IMG/VR virus record: IMGVR_UViG_3300021364_001330
Coordinates: 1 to 25,480 of that record
Direction: 5' to 3' (one strand)
DNA from: a virus
Length of the DNA: 25,480 nucleotides
Below the pieces are notes generated by a model. The model was not told the origin of the DNA, searched no databases, and was given only the letters and a program-made list of their open reading frames with translations. The number at the start of each line of letters is the position of its first letter. Position 1 is the stretch's first letter. Both the position numbers and the translations under genes were made by a program. Below, in pieces: positions 2,666 to 23,993 of this stretch.

Positions 2666-3703
2666 ATGCATGATTTGCGCCACCATGGCCTTGTACATTA
2701 CGCCCTGAAAAGAGGCGGAAGTATCCATCCAATTACACTACCTAAGGAATTAACTGGCGAAACTGGGATTATGAATCCTTCCATTTACGTACATAATGGA
2801 AAGATTCTATTAAATGTTCGCCACGTCAATTATACACTTTACCATTCAGAAGGTAAAAAATTCCCACATACTTGGGGTCCTCTCCAATATATCCACCCAG
2901 AAAATGATGTATGTCTAGCGACACATAATGTAATGTGTGAGTTAGATACAAATATGAACATGCTCAGTGCTGGTCGTATCAAAATGAACCTGGATACAGG
3001 TGAACCAACTTGGAATTTTATCGGTTTAGAAGATGGTAGATTATTCTGTTGGGAAGACCGACGTTTCCTTTGTGGAGTTCGTAGAGATTGCTACGACGAT
3101 AAAGGTAAAGGTCGTATGGAAATGTGTGAAATAGAATTTATTGATGGTTTATGGCAGGAGGTTTCACGTAATCCTATACCGGCTCCTGGTGACGATGGCA
3201 CATATTGTGAAAAGAACTGGATGCCAATCCTTGATATGCCATGGCATTTTGTCAAATGGTGTAATCCAACCGAAGTCATTAAATACGATATTAACACAAG
3301 AACAACAACTACAGTTCACTTAGATGAGTCATCAAGAATAGATGCTCCACGTGATTATAGAGGTGGTTCACAAGTAGTTCCTATTGGTGATAATAAACGA
3401 CTTGCATTTACTCACGAGATTGATTTATTAAAAGACCCATTTTATAGAAAAGATGGTCATTATAACCATCGTATTCTTGTGTGGGACGAAGATTGGAATA
3501 TCATTCATAAAACAGAGGATTTCCATTTTATGGGAACTCAAATTGACCCAACCACAGGTTATGAATATAATATTGAATTTGTGACAGGTATGTGTTTTCT
3601 GAATGGAGATGTTTATATTAGTTATGGTTATCAAGATAATGGTACATTTATTTTGAAAATGCCAGAAAAAGTATTTTTTGATTTTGTAGGGAGGCTGGCA
3701 TAA
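2666..3703 (+). CDS. GH130/GH43-like beta-propeller protein, putative glycan enzyme
   Basis: A 345-residue protein reading as a five-bladed beta-propeller of the glycoside hydrolase/phosphorylase GH43/GH130 type. Visible landmarks are NPSI (37-40) with a following strand, LEDGRLFCWEDRRF (121-134), EKNWMPI (182-188), an RGGSQVVPI strand (232-240) and a last blade with DVYISYGYQDNG. The conserved acidic residues in EDGR and EKNW would face the central pocket if the fold is right. The exact sugar and reaction are not predictable; phage members of this group are often labelled only as glycosidase-like or glycosyltransferase-like. It is the first gene of a coupled cassette (TAATG overlap with the next gene) behind a consensus promoter, with a GGAG ribosome site. 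Confidence 0.65.
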   Translation: MHDLRHHGLVHYALKRGGSIHPITLPKELTGETGIMNPSIYVHNGKILLNVRHVNYTLYHSEGKKFPHTWGPLQYIHPENDVCLATHNVMCELDTNMNMLSAGRIKMNLDTGEPTWNFIGLEDGRLFCWEDRRFLCGVRRDCYDDKGKGRMEMCEIEFIDGLWQEVSRNPIPAPGDDGTYCEKNWMPILDMPWHFVKWCNPTEVIKYDINTRTTTTVHLDESSRIDAPRDYRGGSQVVPIGDNKRLAFTHEIDLLKDPFYRKDGHYNHRILVWDEDWNIIHKTEDFHFMGTQIDPTTGYEYNIEFVTGMCFLNGDVYISYGYQDNGTFILKMPEKVFFDFVGRLA

Positions 3704-4929
3704 TGTTGCAAGAGTTATTGAACAAACACTGTATGGACCCAAAAAATCCAGATAAAATATTTGATTTGGCAAAAGAATATGACCGACTTGAACAAGGAGC
3801 TATGGCCGTATCTTTATATCTTAAAGCGGCCGACCTTACAGAGGATAAATTATTACAATATAAATGTATGATTGGTATTGGCAATTGCTATTGGAGACAA
3901 GGTAATAGAACATATACAGTCGAAGGTGCATTTCAAGATGCTGCAGCTCTCATTCCGGAAAGACCTGAAGCACATTATTTCCTCGCTGGTCTTTGTGCTG
4001 AAAGACAATTATGGAAAGCCTCATATTTACATGCAAAATTAGCTAGACTATTTAATGTCAACGATGATATCGATGTAGGATATAAAGGTCGTAAGGCTTC
4101 TGCTGTACAGGAAGCAATTGCAAAATGGTATATTACTGGAACACAAGAAGGTAAACATGCCTTATTTGACCTTAAATTTAAATCTGTTCTGGACGATGAA
4201 CTATATAATAAGGTTAATACTCTATTAACAGGAATTTTTTATCCAGATACAATTCCATATTCTGTAAAAGATAGAGAAAGATTTAAATACCCATTCCCAG
4301 GTTTTGATACAATTCAAAAAAATTATTCTAAACATTTCCAAGATCTTTTTGTATTATCAGTACTGAATGGTAAACGAAATGGGACATATTTAGAGATTGG
4401 TTCCGGTGACCCGTTCGTGCATAACAATACAGCATTACTTGAAACTGAATTTGGTTGGAAAGGAATTTCGATTGACAACCAAGGTAGTTTGTGTTATAAT
4501 TTTAAAGAGAATAGAAATAATACAGTAATATGTGCTGATGCTACTGAAATCGGATATGCCGATTTATTTGACAAACATTGCATGGAGCCTGTAATTGATT
4601 ATTTACAAATAGATTGTGATGAACTTTCAGTTGATATTCTAGAAAAAATTCCATTTAATCAGTATGGGTTTAGAGTTATAACATTTGAACATGACAAATA
4701 CAGACTCGGCGATGAAATTAGAGATAAGGCTAGAGAACATTTAAGACAATTTGGGTATATTCCATTGGTGAATGATGTAGCCTTTACAGAGGAGTGTTCA
4801 TACGAGGATTGGTATGTACATCCAGCATTGGTAGATATTCCAGAGAAAATGAAAACTGATAAATCAGTAAATTTTGTATGGGAATATTTTATGGAAACTT
4901 TAACTGAAGAAAATGAGAGAAAATTATGA
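3703..4929 (+). CDS. TPR-like N-terminus fused to FkbM-type methyltransferase
   Basis: A 408-residue two-part protein. Residues 1-145 are helical with a spacing typical of tetratricopeptide repeats (alternating Ala/Leu/Tyr helices such as GIGNCYWRQGN and HYFLAGLCAERQLWKAS). Residues 210-400 fit an FkbM-family S-adenosylmethionine methyltransferase: motif I TYLEIGSGDPFVHNNT (228-243), an acidic residue after the second strand (SID, 256-258), CADA (277-280), and DYLQIDCDE (299-307). FkbM enzymes usually O-methylate sugars or polyketides. The TPR part may bind a partner or the substrate polymer. The gene overlaps its neighbours by TAATG (start) and ATGA (end), so the three are made together. Substrate unknown. 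Confidence 0.75.
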   Translation: MLQELLNKHCMDPKNPDKIFDLAKEYDRLEQGAMAVSLYLKAADLTEDKLLQYKCMIGIGNCYWRQGNRTYTVEGAFQDAAALIPERPEAHYFLAGLCAERQLWKASYLHAKLARLFNVNDDIDVGYKGRKASAVQEAIAKWYITGTQEGKHALFDLKFKSVLDDELYNKVNTLLTGIFYPDTIPYSVKDRERFKYPFPGFDTIQKNYSKHFQDLFVLSVLNGKRNGTYLEIGSGDPFVHNNTALLETEFGWKGISIDNQGSLCYNFKENRNNTVICADATEIGYADLFDKHCMEPVIDYLQIDCDELSVDILEKIPFNQYGFRVITFEHDKYRLGDEIRDKAREHLRQFGYIPLVNDVAFTEECSYEDWYVHPALVDIPEKMKTDKSVNFVWEYFMETLTEENERKL

Positions 4930-5678
4930 TAACTGTGGTCGCAACAGGTGGATTTGACCCGATTCATTCTGGTCACATTGAGTATTTAAAAGACGCAAGT
5001 ACATTTGGAACAAGACTAGTTGTAGGAGTAAATTCCGATAGCTGGTTAAAGCGAAAGAAAGGTAGATATTTTATGCCTTGGGAAGAACGTGCAGCCATTG
5101 TCGAAGCATTATCTTCTGTCGATAAAGTTCTATCGTTTGATGATAAAGATGATACTGCGATACATTGCTTGGAACAAGTTAAAACATTATATCCAAATGA
5201 TACTATTATATTCGTAAATGGTGGAGACAGAACATCAGATAATATTCCAGAAATGGCTGTGGAAGGTATTGAATTTGAGTTTGGAGTTGGTGGTGATAAT
5301 AAGAAAAATTCCTCCAGTTGGATTCTAAAAGAATGGGCACAACCTATGGTTAAGAGAGCATGGGGTAATTATACAGTATTACATAATGGTCCTTCATGGC
5401 AAGTAAAAGAATTACACTTCGAACCTGGAAATTCATTAAGCGACCAGCGACATTCAAATAGGTCAGAACATTGGCACGTTGTTGATGGTTCAATTCTTAT
5501 GGAATTGGATTATGGCATGAGAAAAACAGAGTCTCGTGTATATTGGGCTGGACAAAGTATTGATATTCCAAAAGGTGTTTGGCACAAAGCAACAAATGTA
5601 GGAACTGAACCTGCAAAAGTCATTGAAGTTTGGTTGGGTGATTATCTTTCCGAAGATGATATTGAGCGACGAGACTAA
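4926..5678 (+). CDS. Cytidylyltransferase-like domain fused to cupin (sugar isomerase-like)
   Basis: A 250-residue fusion. Residues 1-135 are a nucleotidyltransferase of the CTP_transf-like superfamily: GGFDPIHSGH (8-17) carries the HxGH signature, VNSD (35-38) the following strand, and NKKNSSSW (126-132 region) stands where the C-terminal Ser/Thr nucleotide-binding motif lies in RfaE/TagD relatives. Residues 140-250 are a cupin resembling the mannose-6-phosphate isomerase type II domain: RHSNRSEHWHVVDG (175-188) supplies the His/Glu metal ligands and PKGVWH (215-220) the last His. It may activate a sugar or polyol phosphate and isomerise or bind it. The ATGA overlap couples it to the methyltransferase. 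The domain calls are firm; the substrate is not known. Confidence 0.8.
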   Translation: MITVVATGGFDPIHSGHIEYLKDASTFGTRLVVGVNSDSWLKRKKGRYFMPWEERAAIVEALSSVDKVLSFDDKDDTAIHCLEQVKTLYPNDTIIFVNGGDRTSDNIPEMAVEGIEFEFGVGGDNKKNSSSWILKEWAQPMVKRAWGNYTVLHNGPSWQVKELHFEPGNSLSDQRHSNRSEHWHVVDGSILMELDYGMRKTESRVYWAGQSIDIPKGVWHKATNVGTEPAKVIEVWLGDYLSEDDIERRD

Positions 5679-5679
5679 G

Positions 5680-5687
5680 TATAAATA
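5680..5687 (+). promoter_or_regulatory. T4-type late promoter octamer
   Basis: Exact TATAAATA starting two bases after the stop of the cupin fusion gene and 31 bases before the ATG at 5719. It would restart late transcription for the virion-type genes after the sigma70-driven cassette. Confidence 0.7.
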
Positions 5688-5718
5688 ATCTTACAAAATA
5701 AATTATTGGGATTACGTA

Positions 5719-5985
5719 ATGGCTATTTCATTTACATCTTCATCAACATTTAATGTAAGCAATTCTAGTGCTATTGATAGCGCAAAATACATTGGTGTCA
5801 TAGAGGCTACACAAGATGGCGGAGAGGACATATTTTTTTCAACTGATAGTGCTGATATTTTTGTTGGAGATAATGGTACTTGTCAATTTTTAGTTGAACA
5901 ATTAGCTGGAACTTATAATTTTACAATTACAGCAACGAGTGCATCAGATATTGCAAGTCAAAACATTACAGTCACAGTAGTATAG
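5719..5985 (+). CDS. Small Ig/cadherin-like hypothetical protein
   Basis: An 88-residue protein, Ser/Thr/Ala-rich, with a single beta-sandwich look: alternating strands ending in TYNFTITATSASDIASQNITVTVV, a pattern common to Ig-like and cadherin-like domains that decorate phage tails and heads. No specific family is recognised. The start has only a weak ribosome site (TTGGGA) but follows a late promoter octamer at a suitable distance, and the next octamer begins directly after the stop codon. Probably a structural accessory protein, by position and composition. Confidence 0.65.
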   Translation: MAISFTSSSTFNVSNSSAIDSAKYIGVIEATQDGGEDIFFSTDSADIFVGDNGTCQFLVEQLAGTYNFTITATSASDIASQNITVTVV

Positions 5986-5993
5986 TATAAATA
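5986..5993 (+). promoter_or_regulatory. T4-type late promoter octamer
   Basis: Exact TATAAATA immediately after the TAG stop of the 88-residue gene and 33 bases before the ATG at 6027. The expected start of transcription is near 5999. Confidence 0.7.
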
Positions 5994-6026
5994 TAATAAT
6001 AACTGCTAATAGTCTAGGAGACGAAG

Positions 6027-7004
6027 ATGGCAATTCAAGTCAATGGCGTAAATGCCATAAACAATTCTAAAGTACTTCAAAACATTGCAAGAACGGATAA
6101 CTGTAGGTATGATAATTTCCATCCTGCAGGAATTGTTGATATGGGTACCAGTACAGTAATTACCAACGCGGACCCTGTTTTTTCTAAAACATTAACAGCA
6201 GATACAACTTTTACATATTCCGCCGTGTCATCATCACCGCAATCACAATTTCTTTTACATCTAGATTTGAGTGCTGATGGCTGGACTCCAACATTTCCAT
6301 CAGACTTTAATTTTCCAGCACCCCCAGCTTGGTCGTCTCATAGATATTGGATGATAACAGTATTTACCCGCGCTGGTGGGAAATTATGCACAGCACAAGG
6401 CTTTGATGAAGGTCCATATTCTGGTGCTGGTTTAGGTGGAAGTGGAGCATTTTTCACTTCTTCATGGACTACACCAAATCAATGGCGTACATTTGATTGG
6501 TTCTATTCTGGAAGCGGATTCCCAGAAACATATTGTTATGTTTCATTCCAGCATGATGCTGCAAATCAAAAAGTCAATGTCACTTATGCTCACGGCAACA
6601 GTAGTCAACCAACACAGTTTCAGCCCATCGTCGAAGTGACCTATGGTGGATTAAGCAATATTTCTACTGTTAGAGTTCAATATAATGTACAATCACAATC
6701 TTGTAGTGGAGATTGTAATCCAAGTAATTATGGATTCGGACCTACGCCAACATCGGACAACAAGCTTTCTGGTTCTTATTATACACTTTCTGGTTTAGGA
6801 ACACAAACATTTGGCTGGATGGCACAAGCAAACCCAAATTCATTTGCTACAAACGATACAAGCACAAATGCAGCTTTTAATTCAGCAAATCCAGATCTTC
6901 GCATTGAAATTGTTGATAGTGTAGAAGGAACATTTACTTCGACTTCTGAAATACCTGCTCCAATTAATTTAAGGGCATATATAGGTTCACAACCAATTGT
7001 ATAG
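6027..7004 (+). CDS. Virion-type paralogue family member A (RYW-motif protein)
   Basis: A 325-residue protein with a strong ribosome site (AGGAGA). It starts MAIQVNGVNAINNSKVL, an N-terminal module shared with the proteins at 7014 and 7732. A central motif with G-W-T-P-x-F-P...PAWSSHRYW (near residues 90-110) recurs in both relatives. The rest is rich in Gly, Ser, Asn, Thr and aromatic residues with little charge, as in fibre tips and adhesins. Cysteines cluster in QSCSGDCNPSN. No known enzyme motif, signal peptide or membrane span is seen. Likely a tail- or fibre-associated protein, perhaps displayed on the virion; this is inferred from composition, the late promoter and neighbours. Confidence 0.75.
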   Translation: MAIQVNGVNAINNSKVLQNIARTDNCRYDNFHPAGIVDMGTSTVITNADPVFSKTLTADTTFTYSAVSSSPQSQFLLHLDLSADGWTPTFPSDFNFPAPPAWSSHRYWMITVFTRAGGKLCTAQGFDEGPYSGAGLGGSGAFFTSSWTTPNQWRTFDWFYSGSGFPETYCYVSFQHDAANQKVNVTYAHGNSSQPTQFQPIVEVTYGGLSNISTVRVQYNVQSQSCSGDCNPSNYGFGPTPTSDNKLSGSYYTLSGLGTQTFGWMAQANPNSFATNDTSTNAAFNSANPDLRIEIVDSVEGTFTSTSEIPAPINLRAYIGSQPIV

Positions 7005-7013
7005 GTTTAAGAT

Positions 7014-7478
7014 ATGGCAATAAAAATCAATAATATTCGAGTGATAGGTTCTTATTCGACAGATATTAATCTATATGATTTGAACAATATGCAAGGGACA
7101 TATGAGGGTGTACCTAAACGAGGCTCTAGCGGTATAAGTCTTTCTGGTTCTTATGGTGGCATGGATTTTTCAGGGAATCATAAGGCAGCAATTTCTCAAG
7201 GTAATACCACAATTACTATGCCAAATTATTCCGGAGGCGCACCAAGATCTGGAGGTAATTCTGGTTCAAATTTAAACGCACACGCAGGTGGTGGTTGGTC
7301 AGCGTTCATTGATGTGAGTGTTAATGGTTATGACATTACATGGCCTACAGAATTTAAATGGCCTAATGATTCTGAACCAGATTGGACAACTGCAAGATAT
7401 TGGTATGTACACGCGGTTTGCTATTCAACAAGCATTATATTTGCTACTGCAACACCATTCGATGCACTTTCAACGTAG
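7014..7478 (+). CDS. Virion-type paralogue family member B, short form
   Basis: A 154-residue member of the three-gene family. It shares the start MAIKINNIRVIGS and the motif with W-P-T-E-F-K-W-P...P-D-W-T-T-A-R-Y-W. Between them lies a Gly/Ser-rich stretch (SGGAPRSGGNSGSN). It ends about 30 residues after the RYW motif, whereas the relatives continue for some 150-200 residues with a further beta-rich region, so this is a minimal or truncated form. The stop is followed within 9 bases by a separate gene with its own ATG, not by a frameshifted continuation of the relatives' C-terminus. It follows member A by 9 bases. Confidence 0.7.
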   Translation: MAIKINNIRVIGSYSTDINLYDLNNMQGTYEGVPKRGSSGISLSGSYGGMDFSGNHKAAISQGNTTITMPNYSGGAPRSGGNSGSNLNAHAGGGWSAFIDVSVNGYDITWPTEFKWPNDSEPDWTTARYWYVHAVCYSTSIIFATATPFDALST

Positions 7479-7486
7479 GATATAAG

Positions 7487-7732
7487 ATGGCTTTTACAGG
7501 AAACTCAATTAATATAGAATTTACACTTACAGATAACACAGGTAATACATCTCCTGTATACCAGTCTGTTAAGGAACTAGAACCGATTGATATGCCAGAC
7601 CAAATAAGTTTAATTAAAGACGTGGCAAAAGGAATTTTAACAAGTTCTGCAAATACAATTGTTTCGGTAGCATGGACACATACATGTGGTCAATGTGAGA
7701 CTAATGGTTTATTAGAAAGAGGTGGTGAATAA
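7487..7732 (+). CDS. Small hypothetical protein of the fibre-associated block
   Basis: An 81-residue protein. I chose the ATG at 7487 rather than one at 7382 in the same frame, because the earlier one lies inside the preceding gene, whereas 7487 has a ribosome site (TAGGA) and the protein begins MAFTGNSINIEF like its neighbours. The first half looks beta-stranded, followed by a short helix (QISLIKDVAKGILTSS) and a C-terminal pair of cysteines in THTCGQCETNG, which could bind a metal or form a disulfide. Its TAA overlaps the next ATG (TAATG), indicating coupled translation. Function unknown. Confidence 0.7.
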   Translation: MAFTGNSINIEFTLTDNTGNTSPVYQSVKELEPIDMPDQISLIKDVAKGILTSSANTIVSVAWTHTCGQCETNGLLERGGE

Positions 7733-8847
7733 TGGCTATTAAAATTAATGGTGATTTAATTATATCTAATACTAGAGATATGAGTGATATTACTATTGAC
7801 TATCAGCCAGATGTCAGTAGTGAAGGTATATTTGACCCATTTATTCTTACTCCTGAAGTAAATACTATTACAAGTACTATTAATATGGGCACATCATATA
7901 TGACTGGTGTAATGACCGCAAATACAACCTATACAATTACTGGTACTAATAATCTTGGTACTTGTTCTGTAGTAACGCTCGACACGACTACAACGGGCCA
8001 TACACCTAGTTTTCCTGATAATGTTTCTTGGGAAAGTAATATCGAGCCGACATGGAGTGATTGGAGATATTGGGTAATTACCATGGCTCAAGTTGCAAAT
8101 ACCGAAGTGAGAGCAGCAGCTGTTGGTTATATTTCAAACGCAACTACGCCAACTGAAACAATCGCTCTTGAAGGTACTAGTGCATCACCTGAAGCCTTTT
8201 TTGATAAAGCGGCATCTGATACCTACGATTTTGTTGCGGGTTGGACTTTTAATTCAGACGGAAATGTATACAAATACGAATATATTTACAACGTGGGTGG
8301 TCAAGGTACATATTTACATGATAGTACAACTTGGAATAATATTACCCCATCTCAAACATATTGGATTCAAGTAAATAATCATGATAGCAGAACCTTATCA
8401 GTAAGTGATAGTGACACTATTGGTGAATGGATTTCTTTGAGTTCTACTAGAACATTTAGATATAGGGACGGCCAAACTTTAAGCACATACGGCTCAAGAT
8501 ATGGGACAATGAAAGTAGATATCGCTGAAAGAGATTTTGGAACTGCGCAACATAGTACTTCCAGCCCTACATATTATTCAGCTACGGTAGGCTATCTAGA
8601 TGGAGAAGGATTCCCAGAAACAATACATAACGCTTATTGGAATGGTACTCTTGTTTACTCTGGTGGCCAAACCTCTACTACATCTCCAGGTGATATTTTT
8701 CTAGGTACTGATGGAAATTATTATCGTACAGGAAGTTTACAGCAGCAATTCGGAAATCCAACTACATATTCTTACGAAATACAACAAGCAACTTTTACCA
8801 TTCTGGCTACTGGTTATTATAGAGTTAATTGGGAGGGCAACGCATAA
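7732..8847 (+). CDS. Virion-type paralogue family member C (RYW-motif protein)
   Basis: A 371-residue member of the paralogue family: start MAIKINGDLIISNTRDM, and the motif H-T-P-S-F-P...W...P-T-W-S-D-W-R-Y-W around residues 88-111. The C-terminal two thirds are Thr/Ser/Tyr/Gly-rich and predicted to be beta-stranded, ending in a strand-turn segment (TFTILATGYYRVNWEG) typical of phage fibre or base-plate accessory domains. It is coupled to both neighbours by TAATG overlaps (7730-7734 and 8845-8849). Probably a fibre tip, adhesin or decoration protein; no catalytic motif is visible. Confidence 0.75.
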   Translation: MAIKINGDLIISNTRDMSDITIDYQPDVSSEGIFDPFILTPEVNTITSTINMGTSYMTGVMTANTTYTITGTNNLGTCSVVTLDTTTTGHTPSFPDNVSWESNIEPTWSDWRYWVITMAQVANTEVRAAAVGYISNATTPTETIALEGTSASPEAFFDKAASDTYDFVAGWTFNSDGNVYKYEYIYNVGGQGTYLHDSTTWNNITPSQTYWIQVNNHDSRTLSVSDSDTIGEWISLSSTRTFRYRDGQTLSTYGSRYGTMKVDIAERDFGTAQHSTSSPTYYSATVGYLDGEGFPETIHNAYWNGTLVYSGGQTSTTSPGDIFLGTDGNYYRTGSLQQQFGNPTTYSYEIQQATFTILATGYYRVNWEGNA

Positions 8848-9413
8848 TGCCATTACATTATCCACATTTATATCCCGCAATTACAGGCACAAATAAACCT
8901 GGTACATTAGGTGGTGTCGGAGGTACAGATATACCAGCTGGTACAACAACTGGTCGAATAGCTTCGAATGGCCGCGTATGTGAAGTGAGACACACGGAAG
9001 TTAGTAATGATGTAGAAGTTGTAGCATTTGCATCCGGTGTACTTACCGTAAGATCTGATGGTGCTAATTCTGGCTTTTCTGTATATGTTGAATCGTCTAA
9101 TGGAAATAGTGGAACTAGTTATTGGTATAATACTTCTGGTACCCAAACAATATTGCCTGACGATGCTACAGAACAGAAAATTTATGAAGAAAATACAGTG
9201 ACAGCAACTGAGGTATCGTTTGATGGTAGTAATTGGTACTCCTTTCCTAAAACAAAAACCTTCTCTACGGCGGCGATTTCAGATTTTGTTGGCTATACAG
9301 CTACCAGTACAGTCAACGATACAATACCAATTTATATTAGGGCGACAGGATATAATGATACATTGGTAGAAACATTTACATGCCGTGTTATAGCACAGGC
9401 AACAAGAACATAA
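8847..9413 (+). CDS. Hypothetical virion-type protein with Ig-like features
   Basis: A 188-residue protein. I chose the ATG at 8847 (TAATG overlap with the preceding stop) over an in-frame ATG at 8829 that lies inside the preceding gene. The N-terminus MPLHYPHLYPAITGTNKPG is Pro/Tyr/His-rich and could be an attachment peptide. The remainder is Ser/Thr/Val-rich and looks made of two beta-sandwich-like units (residues about 45-95 and 120-188). No family is recognised. It closes the accessory block just before gp13, so a neck, whisker or tail-decoration role is possible but not shown. Confidence 0.7.
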   Translation: MPLHYPHLYPAITGTNKPGTLGGVGGTDIPAGTTTGRIASNGRVCEVRHTEVSNDVEVVAFASGVLTVRSDGANSGFSVYVESSNGNSGTSYWYNTSGTQTILPDDATEQKIYEENTVTATEVSFDGSNWYSFPKTKTFSTAAISDFVGYTATSTVNDTIPIYIRATGYNDTLVETFTCRVIAQATRT

Positions 9414-9428: not shown

Positions 9429-10388
9429 ATGGCACAACCAACATCAAGAACTGAATTTAAAGAATGGATACTCCGAAAGATTGGAGCACCAGTAATTCAG
9501 ATTAACGTTTCCGATGAGCAAGTTGATGACCGTATTGATGAAGCGGTAGATTTCTGGCGCGATTATCACTACAATGGAAGCCAATTAGTTTATTTAAAAC
9601 ACCAAATTACTGGTAGTAGTTTAACATTAACGGATGCAGACGCGGCTGATTTCCAAATAGGTGAAAAAATTACTGGTGGTACATCTGGTGCTTCAACTGT
9701 AATTACCGGCGATTCAACCGGACAAACATTAACATATCACTCATTATCAGATAATAATGCATTCCAGGCTGGCGAAGTTATTACTGGAGGTGCTTCTGGC
9801 CAACAAGGCACAATTGGTTCAATTACGAAAGGTGATAAAGAGAATGGATACATTACATTACCAGAACAACTTTTAGGTATTTCTGGAATCTTTAATCTTG
9901 AAACAAGTATTAGTACTGGTGGGGGAATCTTTAATGTTCAGTATCAATTCGTATTGAATAATTTAGAAGATATTACAGGCTATAATGTTTCAAATTACTA
10001 TATGGCAATGTCTCATTTAGAATTTTTACAAGAAATGCTAGTAGGTAAACCACACATTCGCTATAATAAGCACGTCAATCGTTTATATATCGATGCTGAT
10101 GCAAGTGCTTTAAGTGTGGGAAATTATATTATTGTAGAAGCTTACGATGTCATTGATGGCGATACATATTCAGATGTATGGTCCGATAGATGGCTACAAA
10201 ATTACGCTTCAGCATTAGTTAGAGAACAATGGGGATTGAATTTAACTAAATTTGATGGTATGCAATTAGTCGGTGGTGTGACATTTAATGGAGCAAATAT
10301 TCTTGCGGAAGCTAGGGAAGACCGACAGCGTATGGAGGAAGAAGCAATAACAACACTTCAACCTCTCAACTATAACTATATTGGGTAA
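9429..10388 (+). CDS. gp13: Head completion/neck protein gp13
   Basis: A 319-residue protein, close to T4 gp13 (309). The N-terminal block TSRTEFKEWILRKIGAPVI...DDRIDEAVDFWRDYHYNG is characteristic of the gp13 family in T4-like phages. A Gly/Thr-rich insertion at about residues 58-115 (two ITGG-type repeats, GEKITGGTSGA and GEVITGGASGQ) looks like an inserted small beta-domain repeated twice. The C-terminal part (YYMAMSHLEFLQEML...WGLNLTKFDGMQLVGGVTFNG) again matches the family. gp13 joins gp14 at the neck to seal the filled head and receive the tail. It is followed three bases later by gp14, as in T4. Confidence 0.88.
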   Translation: MAQPTSRTEFKEWILRKIGAPVIQINVSDEQVDDRIDEAVDFWRDYHYNGSQLVYLKHQITGSSLTLTDADAADFQIGEKITGGTSGASTVITGDSTGQTLTYHSLSDNNAFQAGEVITGGASGQQGTIGSITKGDKENGYITLPEQLLGISGIFNLETSISTGGGIFNVQYQFVLNNLEDITGYNVSNYYMAMSHLEFLQEMLVGKPHIRYNKHVNRLYIDADASALSVGNYIIVEAYDVIDGDTYSDVWSDRWLQNYASALVREQWGLNLTKFDGMQLVGGVTFNGANILAEAREDRQRMEEEAITTLQPLNYNYIG

Positions 10389-11962: not shown

Positions 11963-12388
11963 ATGAAAGTAGGATTTACAGCTAGTACATTTGATTTATT
12001 ACATGCTGGACATGTACAAATGTTAAGAGAGGCAAAAGAACAGTGTGACTATCTAATTTGTGGTTTACAAATGGACCCAAGCTCTGATAGGCCAGATAAA
12101 AATTCACCTGTTCAAACTGTGGTTGAAAGATATACTCAACTTAAGGCGGTAAGTTATGTTGATGAAATTATACCTTATTCAACCGAAAGGGATCTAGAAG
12201 ATATCCTTGAAATGTATACAATTCATGTTCGTATACTAGGAGAGGAATATCGCGATAAGGATTTCACAGGTAAAGATATATGCCGTAAACGAGATATAGA
12301 CCTTTACTTTAATAAGAGAGACCATCGCTTTAGTAGCAGTGGTTTGAGACAAAGAGTTTGCGATAAAGAAAAGGATTATGAGTACTAA
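11963..12388 (+). CDS. Glycerol-3-phosphate cytidylyltransferase-like enzyme (TagD-type)
   Basis: A 141-residue protein, near the usual length of TagD (about 130). FTASTFDLLHAGH (5-17) holds the HxGH nucleotide-binding signature, and HRFSSSGLRQRV (about 121-132) the C-terminal Arg-x-x-x-Ser-Ser-Ser motif that contacts CTP. Members make CDP-glycerol or related activated polyols from CTP and a polyol phosphate; the exact acceptor cannot be read from sequence. It sits between gp15 and gp16, in the middle of virion genes but behind its own consensus promoter and a GGAG ribosome site, and ends two bases before gp16. It shares a superfamily, not close sequence, with the N-terminal domain of the 4926-5678 protein. 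Confidence 0.85.
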   Translation: MKVGFTASTFDLLHAGHVQMLREAKEQCDYLICGLQMDPSSDRPDKNSPVQTVVERYTQLKAVSYVDEIIPYSTERDLEDILEMYTIHVRILGEEYRDKDFTGKDICRKRDIDLYFNKRDHRFSSSGLRQRVCDKEKDYEY

Positions 12389-23543: not shown

Positions 23544-23993
23544 ATGAAAGATACTATTGCAGAATTTTTAAACATGACTCCTTTGAATATAGACCTTATT
23601 GGTCTTAAAATACCAGAGGACGCTAAATTCATCGGTGGGGTCCCACCAGTTGGTGGCATGCAGGGCCACACTCACTCGGATGAAGCAAAGCAACAAATAT
23701 CTGAAATCCAAAAGAAAAGATTTGCTGAAGGATTACATCCGTGGATAGGTAGATCTCATAATGATGAAAGTAAAAAGAAGATAAGTATGGCAAAGAAAGG
23801 TGTAAAATTATCTGAAGAACATAAAAAGAAAATCGGCAAAGGCCGAAAGGGTAAGGTTCAATCAGAAGAAACTAAAGCAAAAATTTCTGCGGCAATGAAA
23901 GGTAAATCTAATAAAAAGGGTTATAAATTAACTCAGGAACAAAGAGATAAGATTGCTGCTGCTAGAAGAGGGAAAAAATTCCCTCGTTCCTAA
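23544..23993 (+). CDS. NUMOD3-repeat DNA-binding protein without nuclease domain
   Basis: A 149-residue basic protein. From residue 46 there are about four NUMOD3-like units, each H/L-[ST]-x-E-x-K-x-K-I-[SG] followed by a K-G-[KR] turn: HSDEAKQQISEIQKKRF, HNDESKKKISMAKKG, LSEEHKKKIGKGRKG, QSEETKAKISAAMKG and LTQEQRDKIAAARRG. NUMOD3 modules bind DNA in phage homing endonucleases (GIY-YIG and HNH), but no GIY-YIG or HNH motif is present here. The N-terminus (MKDTIAEFLNMTPLNIDLIG) is unrelated. It may be a remnant of a free-standing homing endonuclease or a DNA-binding protein in its own right. No ribosome site precedes the ATG. The 3' end overlaps the convergent gene by 4 bases. Confidence 0.75.
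   Translation: MKDTIAEFLNMTPLNIDLIGLKIPEDAKFIGGVPPVGGMQGHTHSDEAKQQISEIQKKRFAEGLHPWIGRSHNDESKKKISMAKKGVKLSEEHKKKIGKGRKGKVQSEETKAKISAAMKGKSNKKGYKLTQEQRDKIAAARRGKKFPRS
23968..23985. other. Hairpin at convergent gene ends
   Basis: GAGGGAA and TTCCCTC form a 7-bp stem with an AAAA loop, at the end of the NUMOD3 gene where it meets the convergent minus-strand gene. No clear T run follows on either strand, so a terminator role is only possible. Confidence 0.4.

Follow-up and report, generated by a model that had tools for sequence, protein, structure and literature searches.

Three paralogous proteins with a predicted XD1-like module, probably virion appendages, in a hypervariable block upstream of gp13 of a marine T4-like phage

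Pelagimyophages and cyanomyophages carry a host recognition cluster (HRC), which the available part of its description presents as a hypervariable region located before the neck genes (PMC7029224). In TSP4 of CBA120, residues 80-178 form the domain XD1, described as a spacer, and its homologues include gp9 of T4 and 6o38 (CpaA) (PMC8825819). In the T4 gene order the slot that corresponds to the one analysed here is occupied by genes 9-12 and wac, the latter adjoining gp13.

The complete IMG/VR record IMGVR_UViG_3300021364_001330 (25,480 bases, the whole stretch analysed, hereafter the window) comes from a marine T4-like bacteriophage, and its genes are ordered as in a T4-like myophage: the end of an S74-type tail-fibre gene (2-1351) is followed by several smaller genes and then by the gp13-gp23 homologues. 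Among named phages, its terminase is nearest to those of the Sinorhizobium phages phiN3 and phiM12 (58% identity). Two features of the HRC are present, the hypervariable region directly 5' of the neck genes and the tail-fibre genes (the upstream S74 gene, together with the tail-fibre PHROG matches of the family described below), and the locus as a whole resembles an HRC, a region type already known from the accessible part of that report (PMC7029224). VrlC, the other border of the HRC, was not found in the window, which begins inside the S74 fibre gene. In G001, a 156-kb relative, an upstream ORF of 1634 aa is dissimilar to the VrlC-like protein of phiM12; the giant S74 tail-fibre gene of the same relative (L011, L127) exceeds 3800 aa within the part read. 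Elsewhere in the window, two adjacent small proteins (1826-2242 and 2257-2589) look paralogous, the first matching DUF7936 and the second phrog_7802. A nucleotidyltransferase-like gene (11963-12388) whose protein is 100% identical to that of contig L017 lies between gp15 and gp16, and after gp23 there is a 149-aa Lys/Gly-rich repeat protein (23544-23993) that by eye resembles homing-endonuclease DNA-binding repeats. The features of the locus are the following.

5400..9413, + strand: hypervariable block, 87.8% nucleotide identity to contigs L017/L018 (flanks 98.6%)
5680..5687, + strand: TATAAATA, putative late promoter motif, 39 nt upstream of P0
5719..5985, + strand: P0, 88 aa, with a weak match to an Ig-like family (He_PIG), restricted to the closest relatives of the window
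5986..5993, + strand: TATAAATA, putative late promoter motif, 41 nt upstream of P1
6027..7004, + strand: P1, 325 aa, leader, XD1-like module and P1-type C-domain
6123..6407, + strand: predicted XD1-like beta-sandwich of P1, residues 33-127, matching XD1 of T4 gp9 and CBA120 TSP4
6423..7001, + strand: C-domain of P1, residues 133-325, portable; also ends Calx-beta-like stalks and other stems
7014..7478, + strand: P2, 154 aa, leader and module only
7487..7732, + strand: ORF of 81 aa without a family match, 97.5% conserved within the variable block
7732..8847, + strand: P3, 371 aa, leader, XD1-like module and P3-type C-domain
7840..8133, + strand: predicted XD1-like beta-sandwich of P3, residues 37-134, from structure matches
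8158..8544, + strand: C-domain of P3, residues 143-271, Ig-like beta-sandwich in the model
8545..8805, + strand: insertion of about 87 residues in P3, placed ahead of its conserved last strand and confined to the window and the closest relatives
8847..9413, + strand: 188-aa protein, slot directly 5' of gp13 (position of wac in T4)
9429..10388, + strand: homologue of the neck protein gp13, flanking the variable block on the right

An earlier note on this DNA had described three diverged paralogues starting at 6027, 7014 and 7732, and the ORFs have exactly the lengths it gave. We also found the MAI-x-[IV]-N start (MAIQVNG in P1, MAIKINN in P2 and MAIKING in P3) and the motif of Pro, Phe and Trp residues ending in RYW (TPTFPSDFNFPAPPAWSSHRYW, DITWPTEFKWPNDSEPDWTTARYW and TPSFPDNVSWESNIEPTWSDWRYW, respectively). 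Pairwise BLASTP within the window gave E values of 3e-6 (P1/P3), 2e-6 (P1/P2) and 6e-4 (P2/P3), and the profiles of the orthologue groups aligned over the N-terminal 130 residues or so with E values of 8e-43, 7e-34 and 5e-36 for the same pairs. Judged from their sequences, the similarity exceeds chance and the three are true paralogues. The C-terminal parts of P1 and P3 differ, as had been noted, because their profile alignment ends where the module ends, at about residue 132 of P1 and 141 of P3. The proposed search for further copies detected the family in many IMG/VR contigs and no fourth copy in the window.

The loci with both flanks in the IMG/VR scans (n=46, some of them overlapping pieces of one contig) carried three copies in 36 cases, two, four and five in one case each, and none in seven. 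The order was kept: fibre, four small or mid-size genes, o3703, RfaE-like gene, P1, P2, P3, variable gene and gp13. That the copies are fixed at three and differ in length suggests a separate role for each. The family profile had no match in the stretches covered of phiM12, Melnitz-3, P-TIM40, XG4 and RHph_I1_18, so the family is not general to T4-like phages. One locus (L075, IMGVR_UViG_3300002144_000157, 2980-8531) has two successive sets of P3, variable gene and gp13, whose copies are diverged (gp13 88% identical in nucleotides, P3 identical at 124 of 272 residues); this is either a tandem duplication of the cassette or an assembly chimera.

The motif TATAAATA, which we take to be the T4 late promoter consensus, has seven occurrences on the window's coding strand and none on the other strand, with 1.7 expected. 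Of 23 distinct regions upstream of P1 relatives, 17 had it 36-54 nt before the gene (1.6% expected); by strand, it was counted 64 times on the coding one versus 2 on the opposite one. P1 appears to head a late operon. Sigma-70-type promoters and terminators were found in the block at shuffle level only.

The nucleotide comparison gave 483 mismatches in 3969 positions of the block versus 174 in 12142 of the flanks (Fisher p 2e-160). Protein identity to the close relatives was 81% for P1, 68% for P2, 91% for P3 and 78% for the next gene, and 97-100% for most of the flanking genes. Considering that dS was raised in the block (0.17-0.51, versus 0.01-0.09 in the flanks), exchanged alleles are suggested rather than point changes under selection; with dN/dS below 1 throughout (0.33-0.79), the comparison points to allelic exchange and does not indicate positive selection. 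Other close contig pairs showed the same pattern of a variable block with conserved flanks. Such faster change in the block than in its neighbours would be expected of parts in contact with the host. The divergence is not the artefact of one assembly, since the same allele is present in L017 and L018, the window being taken as assembled. On L019 and L034, the labels o4926 arise from cross-matches to the nucleotidyltransferase that follows gp15, and they were excluded. A diversity-generating retroelement has no support in the window, where its pair of template and variable repeats was not found; a reverse transcriptase could lie beyond this fragment. As a caution, the adaptive mutations of one cyanophage were not concentrated in its hypervariable regions (PMC6224464).

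Among the relatives, the most variable slot was that of the 188-aa gene, located beyond the stretch covered by the earlier note. At the left edge, the RfaE-like adenylyltransferase (4926-5678) continues into a C-terminal half with a weak match to a PHROG of cysteine dioxygenase; the first half of the gene is conserved and the second, from about 5400, falls inside the block. At the right, gp13 of the window has 319 aa versus 247 aa in many relatives, and the additional stretch (residues 59-137, approximately) resembles tail-fibre repeats (phrog_9851).

The N-terminal residues shared by the three proteins, about 130, comprise a leader (MAIKI-x-G-x-x-VID) and a beta-sandwich that includes the RYW motif. 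A fuller form of the leader, MAIKI-x-G-x-x-VIDDSR-x-L-x-NI, also stands at the start of the CRP-6 tail fibre and of CRP-227 gp41, and the same MAIKI leader begins a long protein of the marine virus AG-345-L05; a simple pattern scan found it on no other protein of the related loci. The family profile matched fibres of CRP-603, CRP-4 and Salmonella phages, in which the beta-motif TFPSxVxWP...W occurs. It is near the C-terminus in these cultured-phage fibres, and the N-terminal module may therefore be something other than an anchor.

Structure prediction, one of the checks proposed, gave AlphaFold models with two beta-rich domains apiece for P1 (pLDDT 79.5) and P3 (pLDDT 73.6). In both models the module region (about 33-134) matched T4 gp9 (65-168), TSP4 (79-180), a KP1 baseplate protein and the Pa223 capsid spike, with a Z of 5.6-7.8. 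The model of P1 also matched 6o38. The fold match gains weight because P1 and P3 pick the identical set, and the module is likely XD1-like, a good match that, with Z below 8, falls short of proof. In BFVD, many of the named matches were tail-fibre or fibre proteins, and some were major tropism determinants.

None of the three proteins had a Pfam match above the cut-off, profile searches against PDB sequences returned no credible match, and tblastn of P1, P2 and P3 against 50,697 phage records gave no match at E 1. P1 and P3 of the window had no PHROG match at E 0.1. For the P2 type, 9 of 18 members matched phrog_19200 (virion structural; best 5e-8) over the motif region, and others had weak matches to the tail-fibre phrog_9017, 7760, 3904 and 22179; the best PHROG stretch shown for P2 covers residues 99-145 only. 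As far as these searches go, the new part is the protein family alone, lacking both a Pfam family and a full-length PHROG.

By profile comparison the C-domains of P1 and P3 are unrelated. The P1 C-domain also occurs without the module. In the slot before gp13 it closes proteins of 854-897 aa whose repeats, judged by eye, are Calx-beta-like, and it is further present in proteins of 588 aa and of 300-405 aa from other phages; the P3 C-domain had a single, weaker separate occurrence, in L068. From these occurrences, both are read as portable end domains. The earlier note had proposed a constant attachment module with variable tips, as in host-range cassettes, and we compared the tips among relatives. 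Within orthologues the C-parts were as conserved as the N-modules, in the close relatives (C-part and N-module identity of 83% and 78% in P1, 92% and 91% in P3) and in the orthologue groups (conservation of 0.45 vs 0.43 in P1 and 0.51 vs 0.48 in P3). P2, which consists of the N-module only, was the least conserved of the three. The three lengths represent paralogue types that are fixed and distinct from one another, and are not tip variants of one protein. What stands of the cassette is the bounded, fast-evolving block beside gp13 and the presence of the C-domains on other stems; the constant stem with a variable tip does not.

Taking these results together, we consider it reasonably probable that P1-P3 are late virion appendage proteins with an XD1-like stem, encoded in a fast-exchanging cassette, whose part in host contact is inferred. 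They are likely appendages of the virion surface (tail or neck), as small surface spikes or parts of fibres, and the tail-fibre PHROGs, the predicted fold, the late promoter and the gene position support as likely the virion-type character suggested before. The short leader would dock each chain on the virion, the beta-sandwich would act as a spacer, and the C-domains of P1 and P3 would make outward contact with a ligand of the host surface or with a partner fibre, P2 being a bare leader and spacer. The sharp identity boundaries and the raised dS suggest that homologous recombination may replace the whole block between conserved flanks; over longer times, the C-domains move between different stems, as their occurrences show, and the expected outcome would be a changed host recognition.

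An unlikely alternative is that the proteins are gp9-type connectors, trimers of the baseplate that hold the long (S74) fibres, with a C-domain that binds the fibre and not a receptor. The gene slot is that of T4 gene 9, with the S74 fibre gene upstream in the same order, and P3 (272-283 aa in most relatives) resembles gp9 (288 aa) in its arrangement of a leader, a middle part that is XD1-like and a beta-sandwich at the C-terminus. Residues 65-168 of gp9 (1qex) matched the models of P1 and P3 with a Z of 5.6-6.2, below 8, and an rmsd of 3.3-3.5 over 85-89 residues. However, a match to PF07880 (T4_gp9_10_N) was absent from P1-P3 and from the 33 P3-type members, hhalign against T4 gp9 gave probabilities of 0.1-9% across 7-29 columns, and the comparison with gp10 also gave nothing. 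Moreover, T4 needs one socket and here there are three differing paralogues, and the presence of the P1 C-domain on quite different stems would be odd for a dedicated fibre socket. G001 has a separate 629-aa T4_gp9_10_N protein, so P1-P3 need not replace gp9 or gp10.

We regard as improbable that they are whisker-like decoration fibres of the head, neck or collar rather than parts of the baseplate. In the Foldseek search of the PDB with P3 the top three rows were the Pa223 spike, a capsid protein that takes the first one, and TSP4; phrog_19200 belongs to the head and packaging category; and the genes are near gp13, which wac neighbours in T4. These head proteins among the top matches mean that the site on the virion is not fixed by the matches. 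The remaining ones, however, are tail fibres, a tailspike and baseplate proteins, and similarity to wac was absent (hhalign probability of 0.1% with the P2-type profile). Finally, non-virion late accessory factors, for instance superinfection-blocking proteins that are secreted or sit at the surface, would fit the RfaE-like sugar-nucleotide enzyme upstream and the proposal, in the accessible part of the HRC report, that some genes of such islands alter the host envelope (PMC7029224), but the resemblance to fibre and structural families of phages, the XD1-like fold and the stalk proteins beside gp13 to which the P1 C-domain is fused make this very improbable.

Within the reading of P1-P3 as surface appendages, it is a doubtful, speculative extension that the three co-assemble through their common stem into a hetero-branched adhesion complex in which P2 would be a hub or spacer without a tip and P1 and P3 the branches; if it were true, the phage would switch specificity by swapping the whole three-gene set. 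The leader, the XD1-like module and the two portable tips provide sequence anchors for a widespread unannotated family of uncultured marine T4-like phages, and the 4-kb block is marked as one that may determine or track the host. If the link to the host holds, typing of its alleles in metagenomes could help to sort phages by host.

By comparison with the HRC, as presented in the available part of its description (PMC7029224), the locus shares the hypervariable block and the fibre and sugar-related genes just 5' of the neck genes, and it differs in its compact family of three XD1-like paralogues, absent from that part. With XD1 of TSP4 and gp9 the proteins share a matching beta-sandwich of about 85-90 residues that is preceded by a short N-terminal segment and followed by further domains. 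They differ from gp9 and gp10 in that no sequence similarity was detected, and from TSP4 in that XD2/XD3 and the tailspike beta-helix are not seen and the leader is unlike the anchor described. A branched tailspike of the CBA120 type was also considered and rejected, the proteins having only 154-371 aa and the models of P1 and P3 being beta-sandwiches with no beta-helix. The Roseobacter phages CRP-603, CRP-4 and CRP-6 belong to other phage groups than the window; the fibres of the first two have the TFPSxVxWP beta-motif in common with it, near their C-terminus, and in CRP-6 the common MAIKI-x-G-x-x-VIDDSR leader heads a collagen-like fibre.
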